In this document: in pieces, positions 11,759 through 58,501 of the stretch
Layout of the letters: each line of letters opens with the position of its first letter
Position numbering within the stretch: the first letter of the stretch is position 1
Assembly (NCBI RefSeq): GCF_029626035.1
Contig: NZ_JARUBE010000003.1
Location: 4,092,001 to 4,156,000, forward strand
Direction of reading: 5' to 3'
Source: Micromonospora sp. WMMD980
Lineage (GTDB): Bacteria > Actinomycetota > Actinomycetes > Mycobacteriales > Micromonosporaceae
DNA length: 64,000 bases
Translations under genes and position numbers: made by a program
The notes under the pieces: generated by a model
Told to the model about the DNA's origin: nothing
The model's database searches: none
Seen by the model: the letters and a program-made list of their open reading frames with translations, nothing else

Positions 11759-12612
11759 GCGACACCGCGACCACCACGACCGGGCGGGCGCCGTCGGTCT
11801 ATGTACCGTCCACCGAGGCGCTGGCCACCGTGCTCGCGCCCGGGGAGCGGCCGGCCCGGCCGAGCGCGCTGTCGGCGTCGCTGACGTTCGGCTGGCGGGC
11901 CGTGCTGAAGATCAAGCACGTGCCGGAGCAGTTGTTCGACGTGACCGCGTTCCCGATCATCATGGTGCTGATGTTCACCTACCTGTTCGGCGGCGCGCTC
12001 GCCGACAGTCCGCGGGCCTACCTGCAGTTCTTCCTGCCCGGCATCATGGTGACCAGCGTCGTGATGATCACCATGTACACCGGGGTCGGGTTGAACAACG
12101 ACATCGAGAAGGGCGTCTTCGACCGGATCCGTACCCTGCCGGTGTGGCGACCGGCGGCGCTCGTCGGCATGATCTTCGGTGACGTGCTGCGCTACGTCCT
12201 GGCCGCGGTGGTCATCCTGGCCGTGGGGCTGGTGCTCGGTTTCCGGCCCGACGGCGGGTTGCTCGGGGTGCTGGCCGGGATCGGCCTGCTGGTGGTCTTC
12301 TCGTTCGCGTTCTCCTGGGTGTGGACGTTCTTCGGCCTGGTGCTGCGCAGCGAGAAGTCGGTGATGGGCGTCAGCATGATGGTGCTGTTCCCGCTGACGT
12401 TCCTGAGCAACGTGTTCGTCGAGCCGGCCACCATGCCCGGCTGGTTGCAGGCGTTCGTCAAGGTCAACCCGGTCACCCACCTGGTCGCCTCGGTCCGGGC
12501 CGCGATGGCCGGCTCCACGGACGCCACCAACACGATGTGGCTGCTGCTGTGGAGCGCCGGCTTCGTGGTGGTGTTCGGAACCCTGACCATGCGCCGCTAC
12601 AACCGTCGCTGA
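11755..12612 (+). CDS. ABC-2 type permease, DrrB family
   Basis: 285 aa with about six membrane helices after a ~45-aa cytoplasmic N-terminus. The ABC-2 hallmark [18 protein letters not shown] and the later [15 protein letters not shown] and VNPVTHLV segments match DrrB permeases. It starts inside the stop of the ATPase gene (ATGA), so the two are made together as a half-transporter pair. Likely exports a hydrophobic compound; no biosynthetic cluster is visible nearby to name it. Confidence 0.9.
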
Positions 12613-12696
12613 CCCTTTGATCCACACCAGCTCGCGAGGTGGCGGGGTTCGCGCAACCTGGACCCCACCACCCCGGCCACCGTCTCGGGAGCCGGA

Positions 12697-12748
12697 GAGA
12701 TCTTGGAAGGAATGCGCCCCTCCAGGCGCCGTTTTTTTCCAAGATCTC
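12697..12748. terminator. Nested terminator between convergent genes
   Basis: A short inner hairpin (GCGCC at 12714-12718 with GGCGC at 12725-12729) is followed by a run of seven T (12732-12738), a good rightward terminator. It is enclosed by a perfect 12-bp outer inverted repeat GAGATCTTGGAA / TTCCAAGATCTC, which could serve leftward transcription too. Confidence 0.7.
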
Positions 12749-12763
12749 GGGTGGTGGCGGCGG

Positions 12764-15700: not shown

Positions 15701-16315
15701 CTCGGCGTCCCGGTAGGTGCCGATCAGCAGCAGCCGCTCGAACCAGGTGTGCTGGGTGGCAAACTGGAGCAACCGCAGCGACGCCGGATCGGCCCAGTGC
15801 AGGTCGTCGAGGATCACCACGACCGGCCGGTGCTGGGCGACCGCGACCAGCGCGCTGGTCACCGCGTCGTGCCGGGCGAACTCGGCCCGCCCGCCGTCGT
15901 CACCCGGCTCGACCGGATCGTCACCGCCGGATCCGCGCTCACCGTCCGCGGCGCGCTCGCCGACCGTGGCGCCCTCGGCGGCGCGCTCGCCGAGCAGGGC
16001 GGCCAGCCCGGCATCGGCGGCCTCCCGGGCCGGTGCCGGGTCGCCGGTGGCCAGGGCCAGCCGGCGCAGCACCTGCACCCAGGGCCAGTAGTCGGGAGCG
16101 GTGTCGGAATCCCAGCAGGCAGCGCCGAGCACCAGCGCCCCGCGCCGACGGGCCTCGTCGGCGGCGGCCGAGACCAGGGTGGTCTTGCCGATGCCCGGCT
16201 CGCCCGTGACCAGGACCAGGCCACCGTGGCTGTCGGCCACCCGCGTCACCTCGGCGCGCAGCAACCCGGCCGGGTGCTCCCGCCCGATGATCTCCTCGCC
16301 GAATCGCGGCTCCAT
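12764..16315 (-). CDS. Large AAA/STAND-type ATPase with TPR-like repeats
   Basis: 1183 aa. The N-terminus has an AAA module: Walker A GEPGIGKTT (~residue 37) and Walker B VVILDDLHWADP, as in MalT/LAL-type regulators. A long alpha-helical TPR-like region follows (about 480-880). An Ala/Gly-rich low-complexity stretch (about 900-1000) leads to a C-terminal domain starting FCFDGSVWRLAWAG and ending in a charged helical segment. No LuxR-type HTH is visible at the C-terminus, so this is not a standard LAL regulator; it may act through partners. It is monocistronic with a strong terminator downstream. Confidence 0.75.
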   Translation of the reverse strand: MEPRFGEEIIGREHPAGLLRAEVTRVADSHGGLVLVTGEPGIGKTTLVSAAADEARRRGALVLGAACWDSDTAPDYWPWVQVLRRLALATGDPAPAREAADAGLAALLGERAAEGATVGERAADGERGSGGDDPVEPGDDGGRAEFARHDAVTSALVAVAQHRPVVVILDDLHWADPASLRLLQFATQHTWFERLLLIGTYRDAEVEAGDHRLRPLLLPLTAKATTVTLTGLGRDEVAALISRTAGREPGAGLVDEVHRRTGGNPFFVEQTARLWQTDGLADTIAPGVREAVRRRLDQLPAPVVEALTVAAVLGREFHRQTLAACLPGPAAQVDRLLDRAAAARLVLARGGGRFGFVHDLVRETLYDGLPEGERRARHAAVVRAVDRSDALADRLIPADLARHAWLAGADLDPVRAGDLLVAAARDAGGRLAVEESVRHFRRALRLTDEPTRRVRLLLELAGLLHHAGTPGEAEQLLVDAAALARGLAEPAVLARVALTARSQHSVTRRRLDADALVREAYARLIGPPDPERSTRALVTDLITATETLARHGRDDEALTFSLWARHDTTWGLGTARERAVVTAEIREVARRGGDRDTELWATSLRWVALLELGDPAYRQELAAFVDGCRAGDVARHRMAAAVDSGIIAAFRGDFAAAEACYAEMARFGEWEHSDHAFMAHHLRWSLLLLRGRLAAAEALLDQPGVASHPQVELLRAITAAERGDTATLVRLTGAIEAAGTAYPRPVSTLWLRSRAQAAAASGDPRRCAEARAALAPHRGRWLVALFGCDIGGPVDLWLAGVDAAERRWDAAVAGYAAARDAADRLGARPWSVLGRVGLVTALLGRGGPGDAAEAARVRVETEAEARELGMTHVVERLGAAGSPATSARTAGAAGHDGTDWRAGRNRVVAASGEDTSGAVVVGFPAPASPVGAAVTVAPGVGVRSGPAGGPGVSGWSGLAIGAATGDRSGSAGDRGAGAAGDRVAGGPGVDGIDGSGEGIGAGRPEFCFDGSVWRLAWAGVVVHLPDAKGLHDLRLLLSRPGVDVPAVELLDPAAGAELVAARRLGADPVLDDEAKARYRQHVRRLDDEIDRAALRDDERRLAALDAERAALLDQLRAAAGLAGRTRRLGDQAERARKAVTGRIRDTLRRVEQRHPALAAHLRESVTTGGTCRYLPAEPVPWRL

Positions 16316-16418
16316 GACCTCCCGACGCTAGTCGACACCTCCGACAGGCAGCAGCGCCATTTCTGCCGCCGGGGGTGCCGGCCTGGTCGGGGTCCGGGGG
16401 CGCGGCGGCGACCCGCGC

Positions 16419-16823
16419 TCAGCGGGCGTCGGTGACCACGTGTGAGCAGGCCGGGCAGGCCGCCGGCCCCTGCTCGGCGAACCACCGGCAGGTGCGCCGG
16501 ATCGCGCACTTCGGCAACGTCTCCTCGGCCGGCGGAGCGGTGTCGGCGTACGAGCCGGCCATCCGGGCGCCCAGCCCGCAGTGCGAGCCGGTCCAGAAAC
16601 CGCAGGACGAGGTGACGCAGGGGCCGGCGAGGCGGACGTGCGACTCGATCGGCCCGCCGGATTCGTCGACCGTGGCGAGCGCCACCTCGGCCGGAACGGC
16701 CGGAGTCACGTAGGCCACCCGGCCCGCCGGAGTGATCATGCCGAGGAACACGGTGGCGTTGGACGCCGGGGTGCTCGGGCACATCCGCTCCGGCGGGCCG
16801 GCGGATCGGGCGGCGTCGGTCAC
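16419..16823 (-). CDS. Cys-rich protein of unknown function
   Basis: 134 aa with about eight cysteines: one near the N-terminus, a CVTSSC pair, a single C, a CAIRRTC pair, and CPACSH at the C-terminus. The spacing suggests metal or Fe-S binding. The GTG at 16823 overlaps the preceding gene's stop (GTGA), so it is the last gene of a three-gene leftward operon. I do not recognise the family. A longer in-frame extension upstream is rejected because it overlaps the neighbour and is compositionally unlike protein. Confidence 0.6.
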   Translation of the reverse strand: MTDAARSAGPPERMCPSTPASNATVFLGMITPAGRVAYVTPAVPAEVALATVDESGGPIESHVRLAGPCVTSSCGFWTGSHCGLGARMAGSYADTAPPAEETLPKCAIRRTCRWFAEQGPAACPACSHVVTDAR

Positions 16824-43424: not shown

Positions 43425-43478
43425 AGCGCCGGAGACCCGGAGCCTGTCAAGTCAACTGAGACATTTTCTTGATTTTGT

Positions 43479-44588
43479 TTAGCTTTGTGCTGCTGGTTGG
43501 TTGGGCACGGGCGAGGCGGTGGTCTGTTCGGGGTCGCTGTTGTCGGGTTTGTTGATCCATGCCCGGTCCGGGAGGCGGGGCGGGCGTGGACGGCGGCGGC
43601 CGAACCGTTGCGGGTGCGCTGCCCAGGCCGCGTCGAGGGTCTGTTGCCGCTGTTCACGGATCTGCCCGGCGGTGCCGTGATGCACCGATGCCGGGGTGTG
43701 CAGGCCGACCCCGGAGTGCCGGTGCTCGTGGTTGTAGTAGGTGTAGAACGCCTCGCAGTGCTGCCGGGCGTGCTGGATCGACCCGAACCGCTCGGGAAAC
43801 GTCGGGTCGTACTTCAACGTCTTGAAGCTCGCCTCGATGTACGGATTGTCGTTCGATGTCTTCGGACGGCTGTGGCTACGGCCGATCTTCAGATCGGTCA
43901 GCAGCTGGGTGACGGTCTTGCTGGTCATCGCGGCGCCACGGTCGGCGTGCACGGTCAACTGATCGGCATCGACGCGTTCGCGGGCGGCCGCGTCAGCGAT
44001 CAGCGCCTCGGCGAGCTGGCCGTCCTCGTGCGCGGCGACCAGGTGCCCGACGACGTAACGGGACCAGATGTCGATCACGGTGTAGAGGTGGAACCAGACG
44101 CCCTTCTGCGGGCCGCGCAGCTTGGTGATGTCCCAGGACCAGACCTGGTTCGCCGCGTCGGCCACGAGTTCGGGTTTGGTGCGGGCCGGATGGCTGGCCT
44201 GGCTGCGGCGTTCGCCGCTCTGCCCGGCAGCCCGCAAGATCCGGTACATCGTGGACTCCGAGCACCACCAGCGGCCCTCGTCGAGCTCGCGGGCCCACAC
44301 CTGCGCCGGCGCCAGATCTTGGTACTCGGGCCGGTTTAGCAGTTGCAGCACCTGCTCACGTTCCGCCTCGGACAACGCCGACGGCGGTGGCCTGCGCGCG
44401 GTCCGCGGCCGTGAGATTAGCGGTGGTACGCGGTGCCGGTAGAGCGTCGCGCGGGAAACACCGGTCAGCCGGCAGGCCCCGGCGATGCCCCACGCCGGGG
44501 TCAGCGCCTGCTGTGCCTCGGCGAGGACGGGTTCGGCATCGGCGCGGAATCCGCGCTCTCGGAGAGCAGTTCCAAGAGCGCGTGCGCT
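43479..44588 (-). CDS. IS3 transposase OrfB (copy 1)
   Basis: DDE transposase part, made as an OrfAB fusion after a -1 slip at 44594-44588. Catalytic residues: Asp in WSWDIT, Asp in VHADRG and Glu in PYIEASF, with exactly 35 residues between the last two (D-35-E). An N-terminal HTH-like region reads SRATLYRHR. It is not a stand-alone gene; see the IS feature. Confidence 0.85.
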   Translation of the reverse strand, partial: SARALGTALRERGFRADAEPVLAEAQQALTPAWGIAGACRLTGVSRATLYRHRVPPLISRPRTARRPPPSALSEAEREQVLQLLNRPEYQDLAPAQVWARELDEGRWWCSESTMYRILRAAGQSGERRSQASHPARTKPELVADAANQVWSWDITKLRGPQKGVWFHLYTVIDIWSRYVVGHLVAAHEDGQLAEALIADAAARERVDADQLTVHADRGAAMTSKTVTQLLTDLKIGRSHSRPKTSNDNPYIEASFKTLKYDPTFPERFGSIQHARQHCEAFYTYYNHEHRHSGVGLHTPASVHHGTAGQIREQRQQTLDAAWAAHPQRFGRRRPRPPRLPDRAWINKPDNSDPEQTTASPVPNQPAAQS

Positions 44589-44938
44589 TTTCCCATGATC
44601 TGCAACGCGGTCTCAGTCTTGGCCAGCTTGGCCTGCAAGCGGGCGTTCTCCCGCTGAAGACGGGCAAGTTCGGCGCTCTCGGCCTTCTTCGCTGCCCGCG
44701 CGGCCGATTGCCGCCGGTCCGTCAAGCCGGCCGACGCTCCGGCGTCTCGGGCCTTGCGCCAGTCGAGAATGTGTGACCCGTACAACCGTTCCCGGCGCAG
44801 AATCGCCCCGCGAGCCGCCGCGTCCGGCGCCGCGTCGTACTCGTCCAGGATCCGCGCCTTGAACTCTGCGGTGAATGTCCGCCGCTGGGGCCGGGCGTCC
44901 GGATCCAGGCTCTCGTGGGGCTTCGACGTTATGCTAAT
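44501..44938 (-). CDS. IS3 OrfA (copy 1), probable ATT start
   Basis: 145 aa. N-terminal HTH (TFTAEFKARILDEYDAAP, GSHILDWRKARDAG) and a leucine-zipper coiled coil (LARLQRENARLQAKL) that multimerises the transposase. No ATG, GTG or TTG precedes the conserved N-terminus after the in-frame stop. An ATT at the start, five bases after AGGAG, is the likely initiator; a TTG within the HTH would truncate it. Confidence 0.7.
   Translation of the reverse strand: MSITSKPHESLDPDARPQRRTFTAEFKARILDEYDAAPDAAARGAILRRERLYGSHILDWRKARDAGASAGLTDRRQSAARAAKKAESAELARLQRENARLQAKLAKTETALQIMGKAHALLELLSESADSAPMPNPSSPRHSRR
44588..44594 (-). other. Programmed -1 frameshift heptamer (copy 1)
   Basis: G-GGA-AAA slippery heptamer in the OrfA frame, read on the minus strand. 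Slipping one base back enters the OrfB frame and yields the OrfAB fusion (~486 aa), as in other IS3 elements. Confidence 0.6.
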
Positions 44939-45155
44939 GATCTCTCCTCAGGACCGTCCAGGAAGAGTATCCCCTGGTAGACGGGCTGTCTCACATCAGC
45001 GTGACAGGGAGGGACCCGTCATGGGCGCGTGGATCGCAATCTGCGCCCGGCCGCGAGCCGTTATGCCAACGGTCACGGCGCGATGGGTTACTGGTAGACA
45101 TGGTTAGCCTTGGTCGTGGGGGCGGAAAGTTCACTTGACCGAGGTGACAGACGTG

Positions 45156-45683
45156 ATGACCCGATCCGACGACGGCGGTCTCCTGCCGAAGGATGGCTCC
45201 AAGGTCTGGGTTACCACAGCCCAGGGATCGCATTTGCGAGGACGGCGTACACGGGACACAGCTCCCGAGATGGCGTTGCGCCGCGCCGTGCACGCTCTCG
45301 GTTTCCGGTTTCGCCTGGGGCGAACCCTGTTCAACCGGTGCCGGCCGGACCTCGTGTTTCCCGGTCCACGCGTCGCGGTGTTCGTAAACGGATGCTTCTG
45401 GCACGGATGTCCACAACACGGACCCTCCCGGTTCCGGGGTCCCAATGCTGAGAAGTGGGAAACAAAGATCGCCACGAACAGGGCCCGTGATCAGCGGGTC
45501 GACAACGAGTTGGTCGAGGCCGGTTGGCAGGTGATCAGGGTGTGGGAGTGCGAGGTGCGCCGGGAGGCTGGGGAGGCGGCGCATCGGGTTGCTGTCGAGG
45601 TGCGTGGCCGGTCGCGCGCGGCCACCACCCGCCAGAGTCTGGTCGGCCCGACGGCTGTTGGTCAGCACCCCGCTGCTGGATAA
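45156..45683 (+). CDS. vsr: Very short patch repair (Vsr) endonuclease
   Basis: About 175 aa. Vsr core: DTAPEMALRRAVHALGFRFRL, CRPDLVFPGPRVAVFVNGCFWHGCPQHG and WQVIRVWECEVR. Asp in RPDLVF and His in FWHGC/QHG are the catalytic residues. Vsr nicks the strand at T:G mismatches left by deamination of 5-methylcytosine, so it pairs with a cytosine methyltransferase such as the one to the right. The start is uncertain: ATG 45156 is used, with TTG 45135, GTG 45144 and GTG 45153 as alternatives. Confidence 0.85.
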   Translation: MTRSDDGGLLPKDGSKVWVTTAQGSHLRGRRTRDTAPEMALRRAVHALGFRFRLGRTLFNRCRPDLVFPGPRVAVFVNGCFWHGCPQHGPSRFRGPNAEKWETKIATNRARDQRVDNELVEAGWQVIRVWECEVRREAGEAAHRVAVEVRGRSRAATTRQSLVGPTAVGQHPAAG

Positions 45684-46052
45684 CTTTGGCTACCTCCCGT
45701 ATGCCGGCACTGCACGGCCTATCGCGAGTCGAAGTGCGATCCCGCCTGCTGTCCGTCACATCTCCTCGACCGAGCGGTTCAACCTGGCCGCACCGGCGCA
45801 CTCCGTCGTACCCCTGTTCTAATCTGGCTGGCATGCGGGAAGCGCGGCGTCGCACGTGGGGGTGTCACGCTGATCCCCCGCCGACGAAGACCGGGGTTGG
45901 CAAAAAGCCCCTCCCAGTTCGGGTAGGGGCGCTCGCGCCTGCTTCCGCGCCACAGGTAGGTTTCTGGCGCACCGGTGTGCGTCCCGCGGGGTGGGTTGCG
46001 GAGGAGTATGACATCCTGGTCCCCGTCATCGTTTTCGACCGTAGGAGGCGTC
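45684..46052. other. Non-coding stretch between vsr and the first GHKL gene
   Basis: No convincing gene. It contains a TAATCT -10-like box (45821-45826) and a GCCCCT...AGGGGC hairpin (45907-45930), so a promoter and 5' leader or an attenuator for the GHKL gene is possible. Confidence 0.35.
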
Positions 46053-47369
46053 GTGAGCGCTCGGAACCTCTACAGCGTGGCGCCGTCTGCTGCGCGGTTG
46101 ACCGACTCGCTGCGCGACATCGGTTACGACTTTCCGACCGCGGTGGCCGACGTGGTGGACAACAGCGTCGCCGCGGGTGCGAATCGCGTCGAGATCGACA
46201 TCGTGTTCGACGGCTCCGACTCGTGGGTGATGGTCGCCGACGACGGCGAGGGCATGAGCGCCAACGGTCTGTTGGAGGCCTTGCGCTACGGCAGCCGGCG
46301 TGACTACGGTCGCGGTGACCTCGGCCGGTACGGGCTGGGGTTGAAGACCGCATCTCTGTCGCAGTGCCGGTCCTTGACGGTGGTCAGTCGCCGGAGGGCG
46401 GCCACAGCCCGCACTGTGTCGCGGATGATCGATCTCGACCTCATCGCCGAGATGGATGACTGGGTCGTTGCCGAACCGGCGAACGACGAGCAGGTCCTCA
46501 AGGCCCGCGAGACGGTCGCGGACACGGGGGGCACCGTGGTGCTCTGGCGCGGACTCGACCGCGTTTTGCCCGAACGTAAGCCAGACGGCGGCTGGGCGCG
46601 TCGCCGGTTGGAAGCACTGGCGGGCAGGACGGCTGACCATCTGGGTACGGTTTTCCACCGTTTCCTTGAGGGTGAGGTCGGCGGCGGCCTCGTGATCACG
46701 GTCAACGGCGAGAAGGTTCGGCCGTGGAACCCCTTCGCCCCGGACGAGCCAGCACGGGAGGTGCTTCCTCCCCTCCGTTTCGAGGTGACCGTCGGTGAGG
46801 CCACCGGAACGGTGTCATTGCAGCGGTACGTCCTGCCATCCCGCGACCAGTTCTCGTCGCAGGCGGAGTTCGAGCGACTCTCGGGCCCGCTGAACTGGAA
46901 CCGTCAGCAGGGCCTGTACGTCTACCGTGCCGAGCGGCTGGTCCAGTGGGGCGGCTGGAACGGCATGCGAGGCATCGATGAACACACTAAGCTCGCGCGG
47001 GCAGCGCTGGACTTCGACACGGATCTTGACGTGGTGTTCAACATCAACGTGGCGAAGATCAGGGTGGCGATGCCGCCGCAGTTGCGTCAGCTGCTCGAAC
47101 GCCCGGTGCACGAGCTGTGCATGCGGGCGGACGACGCCTACCGCAAGAACTCGCGCGGTGCCTCCGAGGGCCCGAGGGTAGCCTCCGAGCAATTGGCCGC
47201 CCTGTCTCGCAGCGAGGCGTCCGGGGCGACGCCGCCCATGCCGGTTGTCGGCTTGGCGCTGCGAGCCGCTGCTATGCGTGCGGGTGAGTACGCCGCCCTG
47301 CAACGCATCGGGGAGAGGCTGCGGGCCGAAGCCCCTGACATCGCCGCCGCGCTCGGCTTCAGGGACTGA
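46053..47369 (+). CDS. MORC-like GHKL ATPase (first)
   Basis: 438 aa. GHKL (Bergerat) fold motifs are present: N-box FPTAVADVVDNSVAAGA, DDGEGM and GRYGLGLKTASLSQC. The rest matches the MORC-like, MutL-related proteins of restriction-type loci, with a middle domain LYVYRAERLVQWGGW. GTG start with AGGAGG four bases upstream. A second, shorter-range relative is encoded at 57038-58501. Its 3' end overlaps the EndoIII fragment by 11 bases, convergently. These ATPases are thought to remodel or clamp DNA for a nuclease. Confidence 0.8.
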   Translation: MSARNLYSVAPSAARLTDSLRDIGYDFPTAVADVVDNSVAAGANRVEIDIVFDGSDSWVMVADDGEGMSANGLLEALRYGSRRDYGRGDLGRYGLGLKTASLSQCRSLTVVSRRRAATARTVSRMIDLDLIAEMDDWVVAEPANDEQVLKARETVADTGGTVVLWRGLDRVLPERKPDGGWARRRLEALAGRTADHLGTVFHRFLEGEVGGGLVITVNGEKVRPWNPFAPDEPAREVLPPLRFEVTVGEATGTVSLQRYVLPSRDQFSSQAEFERLSGPLNWNRQQGLYVYRAERLVQWGGWNGMRGIDEHTKLARAALDFDTDLDVVFNINVAKIRVAMPPQLRQLLERPVHELCMRADDAYRKNSRGASEGPRVASEQLAALSRSEASGATPPMPVVGLALRAAAMRAGEYAALQRIGERLRAEAPDIAAALGFRD

Positions 47370-47655
47370 CCAGCGGCTGCCGTTCGGTCCGACTGCCCCG
47401 TTTTGCTGCCTCGCTGCATGCCTTGTTGAGGGGGCAGCGTGGGCAGGCAGGGTCGGTGGGGCGGCAGACGGTAGTGGCAAGCTCGATCAGGCCGAGGTGT
47501 GCCCGCCGCGCGTCGGTGTCATCGCCGATCATTCGGGCGATGGCCAGACGCCCCGCCGTCATCCTGTTGCTGCGTTCGACGTGCTCGTCCTCGTGCGTGA
47601 AGCGGGCGGCGACGCGGTGGGTGCCCTTGGTGATGAGAACGGGTTCCTCCGCGTT
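47359..47655 (-). pseudogene. EndoIII-type C-terminal fragment separated by IS
   Basis: Codes the last 97 residues of the split methyltransferase/EndoIII protein: EEPVLITKGTHRVAARF, then helical sequence and a complete [4Fe-4S] loop, VCRPTDPACPRCPLNKAC (C-x6-C-x2-C-x5-C). Where EndoIII has a catalytic Asp in DTHVFRV, this reads GTHRV. Its own start is gone; ATG 47562 would give only the tail. Deleting the IS and one GTT/AAC duplicate joins it in frame to the 49187-50902 gene. Confidence 0.85.
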
Positions 47656-47730
47656 CCCTCCCTGTCACGCTGATGTGAGACAGCCCGTCTACCAGGGGAT
47701 ACTCTTCCTGGACGGTCCTGAGGAGAGATC

Positions 47731-48168
47731 ATTAGCATAACGTCGAAGCCCCACGAGAGCCTGGATCCGGACGCCCGGCCCCAGCGGCGGACATTCACCG
47801 CAGAGTTCAAGGCGCGGATCCTGGACGAGTACGACGCGGCGCCGGACGCGGCGGCTCGCGGGGCGATTCTGCGCCGGGAACGGTTGTACGGGTCACACAT
47901 TCTCGACTGGCGCAAGGCCCGAGACGCCGGAGCGTCGGCCGGCTTGACGGACCGGCGGCAATCGGCCGCGCGGGCAGCGAAGAAGGCCGAGAGCGCCGAA
48001 CTTGCCCGTCTTCAGCGGGAGAACGCCCGCTTGCAGGCCAAGCTGGCCAAGACTGAGACCGCGTTGCAGATCATGGGAAAAGCGCACGCGCTCTTGGAAC
48101 TGCTCTCCGAGAGCGCGGATTCCGCGCCGATGCCGAACCCGTCCTCGCCGAGGCACAGCAGGCGCTGA
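47731..48168 (+). CDS. IS3 OrfA (copy 2), probable ATT start
   Basis: 145 aa, identical to copy 1. After the in-frame TGA at 47719, the only initiation candidates before the conserved residues are ATC, ATT and ATA. ATT at 47731 lies five bases after AGGAG. It contains the HTH and leucine zipper that precede the frameshift. Confidence 0.7.
   Translation: MSITSKPHESLDPDARPQRRTFTAEFKARILDEYDAAPDAAARGAILRRERLYGSHILDWRKARDAGASAGLTDRRQSAARAAKKAESAELARLQRENARLQAKLAKTETALQIMGKAHALLELLSESADSAPMPNPSSPRHSRR
48075..48081 (+). other. Programmed -1 frameshift heptamer (copy 2)
   Basis: G-GGA-AAA slippery heptamer in the OrfA frame, starting at the last base of an ATG codon. A -1 slip enters the OrfB frame, which is open throughout. 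Confidence 0.6.
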
Positions 48169-49190
48169 CCCCGGCGTGGGGCATCGCCGGGGCCTGCCGG
48201 CTGACCGGTGTTTCCCGCGCGACGCTCTACCGGCACCGCGTACCACCGCTAATCTCACGGCCGCGGACCGCGCGCAGGCCACCGCCGTCGGCGTTGTCCG
48301 AGGCGGAACGTGAGCAGGTGCTGCAACTGCTAAACCGGCCCGAGTACCAAGATCTGGCGCCGGCGCAGGTGTGGGCCCGCGAGCTCGACGAGGGCCGCTG
48401 GTGGTGCTCGGAGTCCACGATGTACCGGATCTTGCGGGCTGCCGGGCAGAGCGGCGAACGCCGCAGCCAGGCCAGCCATCCGGCCCGCACCAAACCCGAA
48501 CTCGTGGCCGACGCGGCGAACCAGGTCTGGTCCTGGGACATCACCAAGCTGCGCGGCCCGCAGAAGGGCGTCTGGTTCCACCTCTACACCGTGATCGACA
48601 TCTGGTCCCGTTACGTCGTCGGGCACCTGGTCGCCGCGCACGAGGACGGCCAGCTCGCCGAGGCGCTGATCGCTGACGCGGCCGCCCGCGAACGCGTCGA
48701 TGCCGATCAGTTGACCGTGCACGCCGACCGTGGCGCCGCGATGACCAGCAAGACCGTCACCCAGCTGCTGACCGATCTGAAGATCGGCCGTAGCCACAGC
48801 CGTCCGAAGACATCGAACGACAATCCGTACATCGAGGCGAGCTTCAAGACGTTGAAGTACGACCCGACGTTTCCCGAGCGGTTCGGGTCGATCCAGCACG
48901 CCCGGCAGCACTGCGAGGCGTTCTACACCTACTACAACCACGAGCACCGGCACTCCGGGGTCGGCCTGCACACCCCGGCATCGGTGCATCACGGCACCGC
49001 CGGGCAGATCCGTGAACAGCGGCAACAGACCCTCGACGCGGCCTGGGCAGCGCACCCGCAACGGTTCGGCCGCCGCCGTCCACGCCCGCCCCGCCTCCCG
49101 GACCGGGCATGGATCAACAAACCCGACAACAGCGACCCCGAACAGACCACCGCCTCGCCCGTGCCCAACCAACCAGCAGCACAAAGCTAA
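48081..49190 (+). CDS. IS3 transposase OrfB (copy 2)
   Basis: Identical to copy 1: DDE catalytic domain with D, D-35-E spacing. Functional expression requires the frameshift at 48075-48081. Apparently intact, so the element may still be able to move. Confidence 0.85.
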   Translation, partial: SARALGTALRERGFRADAEPVLAEAQQALTPAWGIAGACRLTGVSRATLYRHRVPPLISRPRTARRPPPSALSEAEREQVLQLLNRPEYQDLAPAQVWARELDEGRWWCSESTMYRILRAAGQSGERRSQASHPARTKPELVADAANQVWSWDITKLRGPQKGVWFHLYTVIDIWSRYVVGHLVAAHEDGQLAEALIADAAARERVDADQLTVHADRGAAMTSKTVTQLLTDLKIGRSHSRPKTSNDNPYIEASFKTLKYDPTFPERFGSIQHARQHCEAFYTYYNHEHRHSGVGLHTPASVHHGTAGQIREQRQQTLDAAWAAHPQRFGRRRPRPPRLPDRAWINKPDNSDPEQTTASPVPNQPAAQS

Positions 49191-50902
49191 ACAAAATCAA
49201 GAAAATGTCTCAGTTGACTTGACAGGCTCCGGTTGTCCTCGTCCTGGGTTGGGATTGCGAGGACGGCGAGGTCGATTACCGAGGCGTCGACCCCGCGAAG
49301 GCTGTGGATCTTGTCGTCGTCGAGCAGGTCTGGTTGCAGGGTGAGCGTGCGCGCCAGTTCGAGCAGCCGCTCGGCACGGTGCTCGCGGTTGATCCACCGC
49401 CCGATCTCGACGAGTTCGTCGCCGGCGCCGACGGTGTCCTGCGGCTGCTCCCATCGTTCGAGCAGTGACCAAAGGATTCGTACCTGCTCGGGCGCTGCCC
49501 GGTCGAGGAGCATCTCCGCGGAGATGACCTGCCACCGTGTTCGGGCGCGCAGCCACGGGAGGGCTGGGTCGCTGAGGTCGTCGAACCAGGTGGCGAGGGC
49601 TTGGGCGATGTCGCGGCTGCGGTAGGCCACTGGCGTTGGGGCGTCCAGCGCTGTCATCACGGCGCGCCCGAGCTGGGTACCGAGCGCCGGGGGTACGGCG
49701 TTACCGATCTGACGGAACGCGGCCGACGGTGGGCCGGCGAAGCGGAACCAGTCGGGGAAGGTCTGCAGCCGCGCCGCCTCACGCACGGTCAGTGTGCGGT
49801 CCTGTCGGGGATGGATGTACCAGTAACCATCCTTGGCGATGTGCGCGGTGATGGTGCGGGAGTACGTGTCCTCGCTCAGGCGCTTGTACTTGTCGTCGAA
49901 GATGTCGTCGCGGTAGCGCTTGACGTCCTCCGGCAGGTCCGAGTACCGGGTGTCGGCGTCCATCATGTCGAAGGCACGCAGGTCGTCCTCGCGTACAGGT
50001 CGGGTGATGTGGTCGAATACCTTGCCCGTGTCCGCCTGTGCAACACCGCGACGCATCTGCCTCTGAAAGGCAGAAGCGGGACCGGCGTAGTCTGACCAGC
50101 CGTCGGCGCCCCCCTCGGGCCTCCAGCCGCCCTCGACCTCGGGTAGGTCGCCGATCGCGTTCCACACCGACACCCGGTCCGGTACCTCTGTCGGCCAGTC
50201 GAAGGCGACTCCATCTCGCAGCGCAACCAGGATCAAGCGCTGGCGGAACTGGGGTACGCCGTAGCGCAGGGTGTCAACGACCCGTTCCTCGACTGCGTAA
50301 CCGATCGACTCCAACTCGTGAACCATGGTGCGGAGAATGAACATCTCCCGATCGAGCGCCATGTCGGGAACATTCTCCATGATCACGGCGGCAGGTCTGG
50401 CCAGTTGAATGACCTCCAGGAATGAGCGCCAAAGGTCCCGCCGTTCGTCGTGCGCCGGGCGGAGGCCATGACGGACCTGGTGACGGATCAGTGAGCGGCC
50501 CGCCCGGGAGAAGGGTTGGCACGGTGGGCCGCCAGACAGCAGCTCGATCCCCGCTTCCTTCACCAGGGCAGCGATCCGCCGAACGTTGACGGACTCCCCG
50601 AGGTCGCAGTCGAGGGTGAGACCGGGGTAGTGGTGTCGGTGCGTCTCGACGGACTCGGGGTCCCGGTCGGCTGAAAGGACCACGCGAAACCCGGCCTCGG
50701 TGAGGCCCAGACTCAGGCCACCTGCACCACTGAACAAGTCCGCCGCCAGCCGCTCACCCCGCTCACGGCAAGCTGCGGCGAAACGGAGGAACTCTTGGTC
50801 GTCCCCGCATGCCTTGGGGTGTGGCGCGAGACGGACGAACGGGCCGCGCACGAGCTTGACGCCATAGCCTGCCCGACGTCGTTCGACGGTGTCGTCCGTC
50901 AC
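49187..50902 (-). CDS. Cytosine-5 DNA methyltransferase fused to an EndoIII-type domain, truncated by IS
   Basis: 571 aa as it stands. MTase motifs: DLFSGAGGLSLG (I), GGPPCQPFSRAG (IV, catalytic Cys), MENV (VI), FRQRLILV (VIII) and GNAVPPALG (X). From ~residue 437 it continues as an EndoIII-like helical domain (RTRWQVISAEMLLDRAAPEQV; HhH-like LRGVDASVIDLAV). The frame enters IS copy 2 after Asn-557 and ends 14 codons later. The full ancestral protein was ~654 aa. The MTase is probably still active; the EndoIII part is probably not. GTG start with GGGGAGG upstream. Confidence 0.85.
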   Translation of the reverse strand: MTDDTVERRRAGYGVKLVRGPFVRLAPHPKACGDDQEFLRFAAACRERGERLAADLFSGAGGLSLGLTEAGFRVVLSADRDPESVETHRHHYPGLTLDCDLGESVNVRRIAALVKEAGIELLSGGPPCQPFSRAGRSLIRHQVRHGLRPAHDERRDLWRSFLEVIQLARPAAVIMENVPDMALDREMFILRTMVHELESIGYAVEERVVDTLRYGVPQFRQRLILVALRDGVAFDWPTEVPDRVSVWNAIGDLPEVEGGWRPEGGADGWSDYAGPASAFQRQMRRGVAQADTGKVFDHITRPVREDDLRAFDMMDADTRYSDLPEDVKRYRDDIFDDKYKRLSEDTYSRTITAHIAKDGYWYIHPRQDRTLTVREAARLQTFPDWFRFAGPPSAAFRQIGNAVPPALGTQLGRAVMTALDAPTPVAYRSRDIAQALATWFDDLSDPALPWLRARTRWQVISAEMLLDRAAPEQVRILWSLLERWEQPQDTVGAGDELVEIGRWINREHRAERLLELARTLTLQPDLLDDDKIHSLRGVDASVIDLAVLAIPTQDEDNRSLSSQLRHFLDFV

Positions 50903-51301: not shown

Positions 51302-53374
51302 TCAGTGGCCGAGCTCAAATCCATTCTCCTCTGCGGTCCTGAGTAAGCCGAGCAATACGGCGCACTGCTTCTCGGATGGGATCCCTCTCTTTCGCCCGGC
51401 CGCGATGTCCAGGATGCCGAGGTGGGTGGGTGACGCAAGACGCCGCGCCACGGCGAACCGCCGCACCGATTCCCAGGCAGGCGCACCCATATGGAGAACC
51501 GTGGTCTGAGCCATGATCCCGGAATCGATCTTCTGCACCGCCACTGCGTCCGCGCGGCGTTGGGCGACCCGTTCGCGAGACTCCAAGGATGCCAGGAAAG
51601 CTTCTGGTACATCCACGGACGCCTTCCGGATCGACTCCCAGCATGCCTCCCGCTTGGCCCATTCCGTCACGTTCACGATGGGACGGCGCTCATCGGTAAG
51701 TAGGTCAAAGACCTTCTCCGCCACAACGAGACTGGTCTCCTCAACCTCAGGTGACACTGACTGCCGCGCCCAGATGAGGTCGAAGTCGAACGACTTACCC
51801 GGCGCGTGGGTCTCGACGATCACCGCCAACTTCGACATCGTGTACGTGACGATGTTCGCGAGGTAGCCGCTCTGGTACCAGCTCGCCTTGGCAACGAGTG
51901 CGCGGATGCGGTGGTAGAGGAGCGCTTTCGCCACGAGGTGCTTGAAGTAGACCTCGTTGAAGTTCGCCTCCGATGCCCCCCACTGGGCGGCCACCTGATC
52001 GGCGAAGGCTAGGAAGTTGCGCTGAGCGCCGGCGCTCACCAGATGGGGCTTCTTCGCCCACGACACCTCGTACTTCGCCGCGTCGGTCTTGGTGATGACC
52101 TGCCCCCGGGGGAACAGGGCGGCGAACTTCTTGGCGTCAGCCACGCTCAGCTTGCGTTGCTCGTTGGCGTACTGGCCCCGGGTGCGCTCGTAGAACCACT
52201 TGGTCTGGAAGTTCACACCGGGCTTCGCCGGCGCGAGGATCCGGCGTGACAGGTCCTCCATCCTCACGTGGAAGGGGCTGTTGGAGAAGAAGTCCGCCTC
52301 ACTGACCTTGTTCTGGCTATTGGCGTAACGTGAGATACGCGGGACCATCTCAACCGCTTGTTCGGGCCGCACCACCACAAGCTTGGTCTGCACAAAGACA
52401 TCGTCGAAGTATGGGATGTCCTTGTTGTCGCGGCGGACGTAGAACAGCGTAGCGGTGGTCTGGCCGCCGTTGACGATCTGGAGGTCGCGGATAGTCTTGA
52501 TCGCTCGTCCGTCGGCCGTCCACTCCAAGTCGGTAGCCGTCGCCGTGATGCCGTTGTTGTAGGCGAGGAACCGTGCCGGCTCCGACAGCACTGTGGAGCG
52601 TATTCCCTTGTTCACTCTGCCGGTCGTGCTCAGGTAGGAGCGGACGTTGCCCTCCAAGAGCCGGCTTCCGTACCGCCCGTAGAGGTCTGCCAGTACGCGG
52701 GCAGGGATGGCGGTGAGGTAGGTCTTGACGTCGGAGGCCGTCTCGGAGGTCCGCAGAGCATCCAGCCCGCGCGGAAGCCATTCCGAGAGGTCGATTTCCA
52801 GCTCCTCGCGGCCCTGACTGGACTCATGCACCTGGAGCAGCCGGCGCAGGTCCCAGATGTGGTAGTCGATCCTGATTCCGTCACGTTCTGAGCTGTTGAA
52901 CGCCTTCGCGCGTCCGCTCATCTCCATGTTGGTGATGAGGTACATCCGATAGCGGGTTACATTGCGACCGCGCATGCGGAGGTCCTCGGCGAGCTGGTAC
53001 TCGGGCCCGCTCTCCTCTCGTCCCTGCTGGAAGACGCCGCGGACGGCCTCGTCGAGATAGGTGGCGAGCGACTGAAATGCCTTGCGGGCGTCGGCAGTAG
53101 ACAGGGTCAGTGGCTCGTCCGAGTCCGCGAAGACTGACACCGCTAGCGCGACCGACCCGTCCTGGTCAGTCAGGTCGAACCCGTTCACAGCGACCGCACG
53201 TTTACGCTCGCCGGTGCCGACGAAGTGCAGAACGGTGAGCTGCTCAACCTCCTCCGCTTCCGCCAAGCGATCGGAAACCTCAGCAAGGAATGCTGTTGAT
53301 CGATAATCGTTCTCAACCTCAGCCCGCGTATCCACGGTGTTCATGAGGTCCTTGTAAAAGTCCGCCAGGTCCAT
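51302..53374 (-). CDS. AIPR family (abortive infection phage resistance) protein
   Basis: 690 aa. The AIPR signature is YNNGITATA...LQIVNGGQTTATLFYVRRD; other family segments include VRPEQAVEMVPRISRYANSQNKV and SYLSTTGRVNKGIRSTVL. AIPR proteins occur in phage-defence loci and restriction-type operons. It begins 9 bases after the PD-(D/E)XK gene, so it is the last gene of the GHKL-Z1-nuclease operon. Mechanism not established. Confidence 0.85.
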   Translation of the reverse strand: MDLADFYKDLMNTVDTRAEVENDYRSTAFLAEVSDRLAEAEEVEQLTVLHFVGTGERKRAVAVNGFDLTDQDGSVALAVSVFADSDEPLTLSTADARKAFQSLATYLDEAVRGVFQQGREESGPEYQLAEDLRMRGRNVTRYRMYLITNMEMSGRAKAFNSSERDGIRIDYHIWDLRRLLQVHESSQGREELEIDLSEWLPRGLDALRTSETASDVKTYLTAIPARVLADLYGRYGSRLLEGNVRSYLSTTGRVNKGIRSTVLSEPARFLAYNNGITATATDLEWTADGRAIKTIRDLQIVNGGQTTATLFYVRRDNKDIPYFDDVFVQTKLVVVRPEQAVEMVPRISRYANSQNKVSEADFFSNSPFHVRMEDLSRRILAPAKPGVNFQTKWFYERTRGQYANEQRKLSVADAKKFAALFPRGQVITKTDAAKYEVSWAKKPHLVSAGAQRNFLAFADQVAAQWGASEANFNEVYFKHLVAKALLYHRIRALVAKASWYQSGYLANIVTYTMSKLAVIVETHAPGKSFDFDLIWARQSVSPEVEETSLVVAEKVFDLLTDERRPIVNVTEWAKREACWESIRKASVDVPEAFLASLESRERVAQRRADAVAVQKIDSGIMAQTTVLHMGAPAWESVRRFAVARRLASPTHLGILDIAAGRKRGIPSEKQCAVLLGLLRTAEENGFELGH

Positions 53375-53383
53375 CAGTGCCCC

Positions 53384-54343
53384 CTACTCCGCGGTTCTGC
53401 GCCAGCGGTCGGTGATGAAGTCCTTGATCGCGCTGATCCGAATGTCGTAGGTGGCGCCTACGACTGCCTCCGGGATGGCGGAGCGCCGTATGGCCGGGAA
53501 ATCAGGCGCCACGTTGTACTCGGTGCATTCCGTGGCGACGAACCAGTGGTCGGCGTAGCGACGGTCTGTGGAGTCGACCTGGAGCGCGTCGAGAGCCTTG
53601 TCGAAGGCGAGGGCGGCGTCCCGGTCAGCAACCAAGTCCGCACAGATTCCATCGACCAGCATCGGGAGGTTGACGGCGTCAGCGGTTCCTTCATCGACCT
53701 CGACCAGCGTCACCGTCGCCAGGATGATCGGGTCCGCGTCAAGTTGCTCGAGTGAAGAGATCCGGATGCTCTTCGCGTCGGTCCGCCGGGACTTGACCTC
53801 GTACCTCGGGCCCAGCGGGAAGACATAGTCCTGATGACTGCCGTGCGGGCCCCGCCAAGCCAGCGCGACCTTGGCTGCCTCCGCCCGCTGCCTCAGGAGG
53901 TGGACGCCGAACCACAGCTCGGCGATGAGTCCTCTCAGGGCATCCTCACTGAGCGGAGGTCGGGGTCCACGAGCAAACATCCGCTTCCACTCGGCGACGA
54001 CCTTGAGCAGCGTCACCACGGCCTGCGCCTCGGTGGCCGCATCGGCAGTGCGGGACACCAAGTCGGTGGAGAACTGAAGGTACGGTTCGAGGAAACGGCG
54101 ATCGGTCAGTGACAGCGCCAGTGTCCATTTATGGTCGCCGGTCCGCTGCCGCCGCTCCACCTCGATGATCCCGGACAGATCCGGGAGCGGCGGTTTGTCC
54201 TTGACGATGATGAAGATCATCGGGTCATCGCGGTCGTTGACGCCGACTATGAACCGGAGGGGGTGGGAGGAGTCGACCTCGAATTTTCCGGGACTGGGCG
54301 ACGCTATGATTTGCCGCCAGCGTAGGACGAAGAGGTCAGTCAT
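53384..54343 (-). CDS. PD-(D/E)XK motif nuclease-like protein
   Basis: 319 aa. RGLIAELWFGVHLL, then HQDYVFPLGPRYEVKSRRT, supply Glu, Asp and ExK of the PD-(D/E)XK nuclease fold (DUF4420-like). The ATG at 54343 overlaps the Z1 stop by eight bases; a longer frame upstream is a low-complexity Ser/Arg leader and is rejected. This is the likely cutting subunit of the island's system. Confidence 0.8.
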   Translation of the reverse strand: MTDLFVLRWRQIIASPSPGKFEVDSSHPLRFIVGVNDRDDPMIFIIVKDKPPLPDLSGIIEVERRQRTGDHKWTLALSLTDRRFLEPYLQFSTDLVSRTADAATEAQAVVTLLKVVAEWKRMFARGPRPPLSEDALRGLIAELWFGVHLLRQRAEAAKVALAWRGPHGSHQDYVFPLGPRYEVKSRRTDAKSIRISSLEQLDADPIILATVTLVEVDEGTADAVNLPMLVDGICADLVADRDAALAFDKALDALQVDSTDRRYADHWFVATECTEYNVAPDFPAIRRSAIPEAVVGATYDIRISAIKDFITDRWRRTAE

Positions 54344-57041
54344 CGACCTCATCCGCAATCTCGGACTCGTCGATCTCGATGAACCACTTCCGCTGCGCGA
54401 CCGTGTTGATGACGTACTCGACGTCGCCCCGTGAGTCCTTGGGATCACCGGCCCTGCCTGGTATGGCAAGCTTTACGGCAATGATGATCTTGTTACTATC
54501 AACCCCCTGCGGAAGCTTGTCATCCTGCGGCAGCAGCGGGTACAGCAGCATGGCTGGCCGGCGAAGGCGGCTGTAGAAGACCGTTTCCGGAGGATTCTTG
54601 CCTTTGCCATCGGCGCCTGCGTCAGCGACGGCAGCTTGGACGTCATTATTAGACAGGAGAACGCGGACGTCGGTGGGGCCCGCTAGTCGGCTACTCGTGC
54701 CGCTTACGCGCAGCTCCTTATCCGCCCCCCTGTCAATCGTTCGCCGCGGAGGGTAAAACTTCACACCAGCGAACTCCTCTGGGACCTGCTCCCTACTGCC
54801 GTTGACCACTACGACGTCCCAGGTCTGAAACTCAGGTGCGGTCGCATGCCTCGCGAATGAGCTGAGCGCCGACGCGGAGAAGATCGCGTCCGACGGGTGT
54901 GCCTGGTACTGGCTGAGGAAGTTGGCGATGACGCGCTTCGGTACGCCGGTCCATCGCGGCCAGCGACCCGTCACGTTTCGGGTGGCGGTGCTCGCGGCGA
55001 TCGCGTCGCCGAGCCGCTGGAATGCCGACCAATTTTCCGAAATCACCTTTTTTTCAGAGGACAGCTTGGTGGTCTCGATGCGTTTACCGGCGAGAGAGAT
55101 GGTCTTGCTTCGGGTCTCGGCGGCCCTCATCTTGTTTTTGGCGGTGATCAGCAGCGCGCCAGGGTGCTTCTTGACCGCGATGCCGAAATCCTCCGGAGTG
55201 AGCTTCTGGCGGAGCATCAGCCGAAGATCGCGGCGGAGTTCCTCCACCGAGTCCGCGACGTGCCGGTAGTCGGAGGCGGATGCCTTATCGATCCAAATCC
55301 GGCAGATGTCCTTGTAGCCGTCGCGGTAGCCGAACCAGCGCGCCATCTGCATCAACGTGTCGGAGGCGACGACCCGGCGGTAGAAGTAGCTCACCGTCAG
55401 GCCCTGGAGTGTCAGCCCTCGGCTGAGCACGTCACCGCCGACGGCGATCATCCGCTGCGGCCGGTCCCAGTGCTCATCCTCCTCACCCAGGACGCGGTCC
55501 TTGTCTGAGTTGAACAATTGAACGCGGATGTCCGCCGCCGCGGCCGCGAGTACGTCCAAGACCTCCTCCCACGTCTCTGTGATGTTCGGGTACCGCCGAT
55601 TGAAGGTCTCCTTGACGATGTCGAGGGTCCTGTTCGGATGGCCCATGCGGTACTGGGCTGCGTGGGCCTCGATCTCGTTACGCAGCGTGAAGACCTCGTC
55701 CTGTACCGAGTCGAACACCTGGCTCTGCACGCGCTTGAAGCGGGAGACGTTCACGAGCATCGAGCGTGGCGCGCGTTGGCCTCGCAGGTCACGGACCGCG
55801 TTGGCGACGAAGAAGGTGCGGATCGCCTCGCGGAGGGACCCGGGTACTTCTCCGATGTTCCAGTGTGCTTTGTGCCCGAGACGGGTGAACTCCTCGGCGT
55901 CACCCAGTTCGACGAGCATCGCGCCGGAGGGCTCCTCAAGGGATCCGAAGGTGGCCTGTGAGCCCACGTAGTTGGACGGTGACTCAAGGCCGTAGATGTA
56001 GTGACGCGGGAACAGATCATTCTCGACCTCGTGGTCGATGAAGATGTTCGCGAACGGGGTCGCGGTAAACGCGACGTAGGAGCTTCGCGAGAACAGATCG
56101 AGGATGCCACGAATGCCGCTGTTGATCGTCGTCGGATTGTGGTCCTCCCGGGTGTTGACCGAGGCGTAGTCGGACTCGTCATCGAGGAGCAGCAGGGGAA
56201 GGGGCAGCTTGCCGCCTACCTTGCGCTGCCGGCCCAGCCATTCGGTGAGCGCTTCCAGCACCGCCTTGTTCTTCTTAACCACGAAGACGTAGGGCTCGGC
56301 TGAGTCGGTGCCGACCGTGATGTTGGATGCGGCGAGGCTGCTGGTCCGGAAGTCCTGGATTACCGTCGTCATGCCTTGGGCGTTTGCGAGCCGCGAGTCC
56401 AATGCCCCGACTCCGATGTAACGGGTCTGGGCGGGGATGCCGGGCCGGGCGACACTGAGGCTGGTGTCGCGACCGATGAGCCCCTCGTCGACGCGCTCCT
56501 GGGTCTGCTGACGCAGCGATTCCGTGTTCCCCGCCAAGACGATGATCAGTCGGTAGCCGGCATCGACCGCCTTGTTGAAGAGCGCGAGGTACGTAGAGGT
56601 CTTGCCGGACTGAACTTCGCCGATGACGAGGCCCCGACGCGCCCACGGACCCGCGGCAGTAGGGTCGCCTGCGAAGTCAAGGATCTCGTCGGTGAGCTCG
56701 TCCATCTTGTCGATGACTCGCGGCGGCCGCCCATCGTTCAACATCCACTGCTTGAAGTTGAGCCATCGCGACCAGTCCATCTGCCGCTTCTTGTCCTGCA
56801 GCCATGGCTTGAAGTCCTCGCCGACGATGGCGACGCCCTGCTCGACGTCGATGCTGAGCCGCTCCGTCAGCCGTCGGACCAATGCGGCGACATCCTCGTC
56901 AGTGGCGTCGGGCGCGGCCGCTCGGCGGTACTGCTCCACCATCTCGGTGAGGTGTACCTCCGAGTGGGTCCTGCCAGCGAGCAATGCGCCGACGACCTTC
57001 TCCAAGGCCGCGATCTGCTCCTGACTGTTTCCGTTGATCAA
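54336..57041 (-). CDS. Z1 domain NTPase
   Basis: 901 aa. Walker A-like VIGEVQSGKTSTYLAL (~150), Walker B LLLLDDESDYAS (~290), and the Z1 hallmark VGGDVLSRGLTLQGLTVSYFYRR...LMQMARWFGYR (~560-600), reminiscent of an SF2 helicase C-terminal lobe. Z1 proteins accompany MORC-like ATPases and AIPR in restriction-type operons. It overlaps both neighbours (ATGA with the GHKL gene, eight bases with the nuclease gene), so translation is coupled. Confidence 0.85.
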   Translation of the reverse strand: MINGNSQEQIAALEKVVGALLAGRTHSEVHLTEMVEQYRRAAAPDATDEDVAALVRRLTERLSIDVEQGVAIVGEDFKPWLQDKKRQMDWSRWLNFKQWMLNDGRPPRVIDKMDELTDEILDFAGDPTAAGPWARRGLVIGEVQSGKTSTYLALFNKAVDAGYRLIIVLAGNTESLRQQTQERVDEGLIGRDTSLSVARPGIPAQTRYIGVGALDSRLANAQGMTTVIQDFRTSSLAASNITVGTDSAEPYVFVVKKNKAVLEALTEWLGRQRKVGGKLPLPLLLLDDESDYASVNTREDHNPTTINSGIRGILDLFSRSSYVAFTATPFANIFIDHEVENDLFPRHYIYGLESPSNYVGSQATFGSLEEPSGAMLVELGDAEEFTRLGHKAHWNIGEVPGSLREAIRTFFVANAVRDLRGQRAPRSMLVNVSRFKRVQSQVFDSVQDEVFTLRNEIEAHAAQYRMGHPNRTLDIVKETFNRRYPNITETWEEVLDVLAAAAADIRVQLFNSDKDRVLGEEDEHWDRPQRMIAVGGDVLSRGLTLQGLTVSYFYRRVVASDTLMQMARWFGYRDGYKDICRIWIDKASASDYRHVADSVEELRRDLRLMLRQKLTPEDFGIAVKKHPGALLITAKNKMRAAETRSKTISLAGKRIETTKLSSEKKVISENWSAFQRLGDAIAASTATRNVTGRWPRWTGVPKRVIANFLSQYQAHPSDAIFSASALSSFARHATAPEFQTWDVVVVNGSREQVPEEFAGVKFYPPRRTIDRGADKELRVSGTSSRLAGPTDVRVLLSNNDVQAAVADAGADGKGKNPPETVFYSRLRRPAMLLYPLLPQDDKLPQGVDSNKIIIAVKLAIPGRAGDPKDSRGDVEYVINTVAQRKWFIEIDESEIADEVDD

Positions 57042-58501
57042 GACGCGGCCTTCCTCAACAGTGCTTCAGGGTTTCGGGAGAGTGTGAACGGTTCGACATA
57101 CCGCAGTCGGGCGACGAAGTCGTCCGCGGACTCGCCGGTTCGGCTGAACACGGACCACAGGGTGACCGCGTAGTCGAGGAGCTCACCCTCGTCCGAATGC
57201 TGGGGCGCGTGCGCGCTGTCACCGCCTAGGCGGTTGTAGGCGTCCTCGACGGGAAAGGACGACTCGATGGTCCTCAACAGCTCACACAGCAGCCGACGTG
57301 CGCCGTTCTCCAGTTGCTCGTCAAGGGCGGCGAGCAGCGGGTGCTCGCGATTGAGCTCATATCGGAACGAGCCGCGTTCGTCGATAAGTTTCCACGTCCT
57401 GACGACCCTATCCGAAGCTGCCGCGGGCCGGCCCCGGTACAGCTGAGTGCGCTGACTCGGGTGGACGATCCGGTCCACCAAGCGCTTCAGCTGGTCTCTG
57501 ATCTCCGTCGGCGGGACGGCCGCGGACTTCTTGATGTCAAGAGACCACAGGTGGTCGAGGGTGTTCGGGATGTCGACGCGGACGCGCGCCAGTTTGCCGA
57601 GGTCGTCCTTCGGCACAAGGCGGAACCAGGTTCCCCAGATGACTAGGCGCCTGGCCCGGTAGATGTAGAAGCCCTGGCTGTCGCGCAGCCGGCCGGCGAT
57701 CTGCGCGGTCTCCTTATCGGTCTGCGAAAGCTTCGAGATGTAGGGCAAGGTAAACGGCTGAACGTCGATCCTTGCGCCAGCGATGGCAAAGGACTCGGCC
57801 GGCCCTTTCTGGGTGGCCCGGTGCACCGTGAGGAAGGGGTCGACAACCTTCAGCCGGACACCGTTCAGCGCCATCGCGACCTTGGGCTTGTCGTCCTCGC
57901 CCGAGATGAAGCGATGGAAGACGAGTGAGAGGTGCGCCCGAGCGTTGAGCATCTGCTCATTGAAGGCCTTGGCAAAAATTGTCTGGCTGGCCGAGGGGAG
58001 ACGGTCGAAGTGCCGCCAGACGACCAAGGTCCCGCTCGGGTTCGCTTTGATCTCGTCGTAGCGGGGGAGGTTCGAGGCCTCCGCCTCGGAGAGGGTGAGC
58101 AGCGCCCAGCGCCTCGAGCGGGTGAGGTAGTCAAGGTCCCAACGCAGCGCCGTCACCACACCGTCCCGTTTGGTCACCACCGTGAGCTCGCGGCATTGGG
58201 AGAGTGACGCGGTCTTGAGTCCTAGTCCGAAGCGACCAAGGTCGTCGGGCCGCCTGCTCCTAGCGGCGCCCGTGCCCGCCAGACACATCGCAGCGCGAGC
58301 CTCGTCGGCGTTCATTCCGGTTCCGTCGTCGACGATAGCCAGGTAAGGCTCGCCCTCCGCGCTAAAGAACACCTCGACACGGTTTGCCTGCGCGGTGATC
58401 GAGTTATCGATCAGGTCGGCGACCGCCGCCTCAAGTGAGTAGCCGACGGCTCTAAGCGACTCCATCAGCTGAGGCTCCGGAGGGAGCTCCTCCTCGTTCA
58501 C
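57038..58501 (-). CDS. MORC-like GHKL ATPase (second)
   Basis: 487 aa. N-box LEAAVADLIDNSITAQA, DDGTGM and GRFGLGLKTASLSQC are the Bergerat ATP-binding motifs. A middle segment, FYIYRARRLVIWGTW, parallels that in the first GHKL protein (LYVYRAERLVQWGGW). The two are clearly related but diverged. GTG start, GGGAGAG upstream. First gene of the four-gene leftward operon. Confidence 0.85.
   Translation of the reverse strand: MNEEELPPEPQLMESLRAVGYSLEAAVADLIDNSITAQANRVEVFFSAEGEPYLAIVDDGTGMNADEARAAMCLAGTGAARSRRPDDLGRFGLGLKTASLSQCRELTVVTKRDGVVTALRWDLDYLTRSRRWALLTLSEAEASNLPRYDEIKANPSGTLVVWRHFDRLPSASQTIFAKAFNEQMLNARAHLSLVFHRFISGEDDKPKVAMALNGVRLKVVDPFLTVHRATQKGPAESFAIAGARIDVQPFTLPYISKLSQTDKETAQIAGRLRDSQGFYIYRARRLVIWGTWFRLVPKDDLGKLARVRVDIPNTLDHLWSLDIKKSAAVPPTEIRDQLKRLVDRIVHPSQRTQLYRGRPAAASDRVVRTWKLIDERGSFRYELNREHPLLAALDEQLENGARRLLCELLRTIESSFPVEDAYNRLGGDSAHAPQHSDEGELLDYAVTLWSVFSRTGESADDFVARLRYVEPFTLSRNPEALLRKAAS

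Follow-up and report, generated by a model that had tools for sequence, protein, structure and literature searches.

The stretch of DNA analysed here (the window) comprises 64,000 nt of contig NZ_JARUBE010000003.1 of Micromonospora sp. WMMD980, and it carries a gene cluster in which an insertion sequence (IS) interrupts a gene for a C5 cytosine DNA methyltransferase (C5-MTase) fused to a glycosylase-fold domain (coordinates in Table 1). Besides its Pfam match, the protein has the motifs DLFSGAGG, PPCQPFS (with the catalytic PPCQ), ENVP, QFRQR and GNAVPP at positions 55, 126, 176, 218 and 400, as in C5-MTases. The element belongs to the IS3 family, with 165.1 bits against a cut-off of 160 for NCBIfam transpos_IS3 and 3-bp target duplications at three copies.

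A sequence-only reading had proposed that the IS splits one gene whose fragments lie in one frame, and comparison with an intact paralog of 655 aa, about 0.96 Mb away in the same genome, together with the ends of three IS copies, bore this out. The right piece (49187-50902, - strand) corresponds to paralog residues 4-560 with 91.6% identity and the left piece (47359-47655, - strand) to residues 560-655 with 84.7% identity; thus the IS sits within one gene, and the two pieces meet in register, though unjoined. Paralog residue 560 corresponds to the duplicated codon and is present in both pieces. The end-to-end alignment of the fragment at 47359 also rules out that it belongs to another gene. 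The 5′ open reading frame (ORF) of 571 aa continues to 49187, its final 14 codons being read from the IS, and the same IS-derived tail ends one piece of a broken vsr gene in the paralog cluster. In the window cluster, the IS takes the cysteine-loop part off the domain, and the MTase domain itself is whole. An assembly artefact is unlikely because three IS copies carry three different duplications, namely GTT in the MTase gene, GGT (read on the - strand) at 43438-45013 and ACC in the paralog cluster.

The MTase-glycosylase-fold fusion is the normal state for this family. In a search with the MTase part, 7,998 candidates were scored, and 98 of the best 120 were new; although these were chosen on the MTase part alone, 93 of the 98 have 90% or more of the C-terminal domain, 3 have part of it and 2 lack it. 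A search with residues 425-655, restricted by full-protein length, gave 166 proteins, of which 120 were listed, including the window's own truncated protein (P0034). Uninterrupted homologs of ~650 aa from other Micromonospora were among the matches listed, and of the named ones listed those from Micromonospora were the nearest. The whole-protein profile matched at E 1e-120 in 6 of 396 sampled Actinomycetota genomes, the window genome included, a scattered occurrence as expected of a defence gene, and the C-terminal domain had no counterpart among phage records at E 1e-6. Both subtypes of the MTase tree can occur in one locus, as two different fusions at L016:9965-11959 and 14845-16734, and likewise at L018:9731-11965 and 12414-14495.

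The C-terminal domain is not detected by Pfam in the window protein, and a whole-protein Foldseek run gave only methyltransferases in the 50 rows listed, so that a domain-only model was needed. The predicted fold is that of the MutY/Mig (HhH-GPD) glycosylases; the MutY equivalog TIGR01084 is missed by far, with 40.7 bits against 286.5. Residues were compared in an alignment of 213 rows, made up of the paralog and 212 listed proteins that cover 90% or more of the domain, which thus describes close relatives; columns were assigned from a gap-free stretch against a stand-alone Mig-like protein (P0141) and MutY, plus Mig of plasmid pFV1 itself. The four cysteines that would form the [4Fe-4S] loop, in the spacing C-x6-C-x2-C-x5-C claimed earlier, align in all 213 rows, and R459, W460, R573 and R593 are invariant. 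E466, at the position of MutY E37 and Mig E42, is E or D in every row, and E562 and E563 are E in 210 and 207 rows, respectively. The catalytic Asp of the GPD motif is found in no row, whether in its own column or an adjacent one; at the Mig Tyr126 position there are Ala (128), Ser (73), Thr (8), Val (2), Pro (1) and Ile (1), but never Tyr. The earlier idea of an MTase joined to a glycosylase-type domain is thus partly supported, the fusion and the cysteine loop being present and the catalytic Asp and Tyr absent; judged by its residues, the domain would not be a working glycosylase. Compared with the MutY core, it lacks the catalytic Asp, sits behind an MTase and ends after the cysteine loop. 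It is under purifying selection, with ratios of non-synonymous to synonymous substitution (dN/dS) of 0.045 to 0.249 over eight domain comparisons (dS is saturated in one).

Mig-like genes adjoin C5-MTase genes in Halomicrobium, Thermus and Caldicellulosiruptor plasmids, and lie beside them in Chloroflexota and viral-contig loci. In Methanothermobacter pFV1, the T:G glycosylase gene (Mig.MthI) is two genes from a C5-MTase gene and next-but-one to an NgoPII-type restriction endonuclease gene; it stands alone and has both Tyr126 and the catalytic Asp, whereas the window-family domain is fused and has neither. Tyr and Asp are also kept in eight ORFs of the Chloroflexota and viral-contig loci (two of which, L133 and L134, appear to be a single gene), in L092, L093 and L096, and in L047, where one of the four cysteines is missing. 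Three fused proteins with both residues were found (L030, L044 and L186), all from Chloroflexota, where 9 of 400 sampled genomes match L044 at E 1e-60, and 3 of these 9 are the fused catalytic ones. Apart from these three, the fused rows examined have neither residue, namely the 42 non-catalytic rows in a set of 45 locus rows (3 being catalytic) as well as L094, L106, L107 and L025. The last of these, left out of the 45 rows by a length filter, was checked separately with L033, L043 and L045, and none of the four has the Asp (the alignment is poor for L043 and L045). L029, L031 and L033 (Microbacteriaceae/Propionibacteriaceae) as well as L043 and L045 (Prochlorococcus) have no cysteine loop but retain a C-terminal extension of comparable length. 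A C5-MTase with a glycosylase-fold partner also lies with a DUF6339 gene in Synechococcus (L094:3218-5820), where the partner is fused and non-catalytic, and in Halomicrobium (L092:1171-6750), where it is separate and catalytic.

The distribution of vsr was counted in 49 loci, namely L004 and 48 of the at least 78 loci kept (30 were left uncounted), some with short flanks. A vsr gene (at least 45 bits) lies within the fetched stretch in 33 of the 46 loci whose domain is non-catalytic by residues, including an IS-split copy (L004) and one truncated by the end of the stretch (L054), and 11 of the remaining 13 genomes have vsr elsewhere (9 of 9 in one set and 2 of 4 in the other). The base rate is 36 of 149 Actinomycetota genomes, at which 11 or more of 13 would have p = 8e-6, a value that ignores C5-MTase content and shared descent. 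Genomes with catalytic Mig-like partners in the MTase clade (G396, G397, G398 and G576) have vsr in one case of four. A strict rule that a catalytic glycosylase means no Vsr (nearby vsr in 0 of 3 loci vs 33 of 46, Fisher p 0.03) was dropped because the three are one clade, the vsr of G398 lies on another contig, and the base rate in Chloroflexota is 30 of 151 genomes.

C5-methylation is mutagenic and leads to T:G mismatches through deamination, and its known bacterial and archaeal repair partners, Vsr and Mig, are separate enzymes. We consider it probable that the fused domain descends from a Mig-type enzyme, has lost catalysis with its Asp and Tyr, and now serves as a non-catalytic module for DNA holding or docking. 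The ancestor would have been a glycosylase acting on T:G mismatches and encoded apart from a C5-MTase, which it served as a repair companion; after fusion the catalytic Asp and Tyr would have been lost and the fold and cluster cysteines kept. At present the module may keep the MTase bound to DNA, perhaps where there is a T:G mismatch or hemimethylation, or may instead link it to Vsr or to the GHKL ATPase encoded next to it, and T:G repair would be done by Vsr. A repair partner thus looks to have been joined to the MTase and later inactivated throughout a bacterial family, with its cysteines invariant in close relatives. The series at hand (separate catalytic gene, fused catalytic, fused non-catalytic, and fused with no cysteine loop) makes it possible to test what a [4Fe-4S] glycosylase domain does once it is catalytically dead, and a predicted defence system gains a domain that Pfam misses in the window protein.

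Several points weigh against a disarmed module whose repair task has passed to Vsr. The catalytic group is a single clade of the MTase tree (support 100/99), and its scarcity of vsr matches the Chloroflexota base rate; moreover, the Vsr argument is confounded, as vsr may in any case be commoner in C5-MTase-rich genomes. In the Microbacterium relatives L029 and L033, both the cysteine loop and vsr are missing, and the 17 kb of L186, which is fused and catalytic, contain no MZA-like genes. Support for grouping all non-catalytic MTases at one fork is weak (89/55), and several of the long outgroup rows cannot be relied on, so that a single loss of the catalytic residues is likely but not proven. 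A shifted acid (E562/E563) could in principle act in catalysis. E. coli MutY is an active adenine glycosylase and has Ser at the Tyr126 position in the alignment, and hence the missing Asp is the stronger argument for lost catalysis.

For the window locus only, and compatible with a disarmed module in the family, it is possible, if doubtful, that the split copy is a redundant gene in decay after its inactivation by the IS. An intact paralog as similar as the one described would allow this, but dN/dS between window and paralog is 0.055 for the MTase part and 0.24 and 0.118 for the two domain parts (0.118 being the severed 3′ piece), although a recent insertion would look alike; the family-wide pattern, in any case, is independent of this locus. 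Retention of all four cysteines despite the loss of the Asp, and of C-terminal extensions in the five loci with no cysteine loop, would also suit a structural or redox relic that stabilises the protein or senses redox through the cluster and recognises no DNA; we regard this as unlikely, since the four invariant Arg and Trp residues perhaps exceed the needs of a scaffold, which is not decisive. Least likely of all is a glycosylase still active through other residues (such as the conserved Glu-Glu-Pro motif or E466), repairing T:G or removing a modified base, as the conserved acids, the purifying selection and the Ser of MutY might suggest. The Asp is missing in all 213 rows and in the 42 non-catalytic locus rows, the Glu at the E37 position is gone in the second subtype, and Mig Y126S is inactive on T:G according to PMC2714593.

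The surrounding genes, a neighbourhood that recurs in the family, form an MZA-like/MORC-type restriction cluster with a probable antiphage role, in which the second GHKL ATPase gene is convergent with the MTase gene and overlaps its end by 11 bp. As in the MZA system, homologs of MzaB, C, D and E occur together, with NCBIfam bits far under the equivalog cut-offs (MzaB 302.6 and 248.5 of 850, MzaC 480.7 of 1500, MzaD 87.1 of 420 and MzaE 350.9 of 1050), yet the homology is clear; the window cluster differs in adding the C5-MTase, a second GHKL ATPase and vsr. MzaA is described as a sigma factor in PMC9523054. MORC/paraMORC restriction-modification operons (Iyer et al. 2008, PMC2292703) have similar neighbourhoods of GHKL ATPase, DNA cytosine methylase, Vsr and AIPR, but that text mentions no glycosylase, MutY, HhH or endonuclease III. 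A further published system shares the core genes, including a cytosine methyltransferase, and its type I is said to be associated with DNA repair endonucleases, but its main text is silent on glycosylase, Vsr and HhH and describes no domain fused to the MTase. Among titles and abstract beginnings of the open-access literature searched, we found no paper on an inactive MutY/Mig domain joined to a C5-MTase.

Table 1. Features of the window cluster, with positions in the window
Feature	Position	Strand	Evidence or remark
5′ part of C5-MTase gene up to IS, 557 codons	49232..50902	-	Pfam PF00145 2e-52; motifs; paralog alignment
MTase domain of 5′ part	about 49658-50743	-	
First ~60% of glycosylase-fold domain	about 49232-49639	-	
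Severed 3′ part: last ~40% of glycosylase-fold domain, four-Cys loop, stop codon of gene	47359..47655	-	
IS3-type insertion sequence	47656..49231	+	1,576 bp; ends fixed by comparing three identical copies
Transposase ORFs of IS	47884-48168 and 48294-49190	+	inside 47656..49231
Target-site duplicate GTT, left	47653..47655		three-copy comparison
Target-site duplicate GTT, right	49232..49234		three-copy comparison
Second copy of same IS	43438..45013	-	stops ~120 bp before listed vsr ORF
vsr mismatch endonuclease, intact, ORF as listed	45135..45683	+	PF03852 1.9e-17; TIGR00632 107.3 bits, cut-off 97.85
Second GHKL (MzaB/MORC-like) ATPase	45975..47369	+	PF13589 1.5e-27; MzaB profiles; 91.6% to paralog cluster
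AIPR protein (MzaE-like)	51302..53374	-	PF10592 1.7e-92; MzaE profiles, under NCBIfam cut-off
DUF4420 PD-(D/E)XK nuclease-like protein (MzaD-like)	53384..54469	-	PF14390 1.3e-44; Mza profiles
PF10593 protein	54336..57041	-	PF10593 4.7e-67; Mza profiles
First GHKL ATPase (MzaB-like)	57038..58501	-	PF13589 5e-32; Mza profiles

In the paralog cluster (L004:12612-14840), vsr is interrupted near residue 77 by a copy of the IS found in the window MTase gene (12935-14510), and the MTase fusion is intact. The genome therefore keeps, as a mirror image, one intact vsr in the window and one intact MTase-domain fusion in the paralog cluster. Such damage is compatible with two clusters covering for each other, and may also have arisen by chance, given that the genome holds nine full-length, nearly identical copies of the IS. 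The copy at 43438-45013 may separate the window vsr from its promoter.
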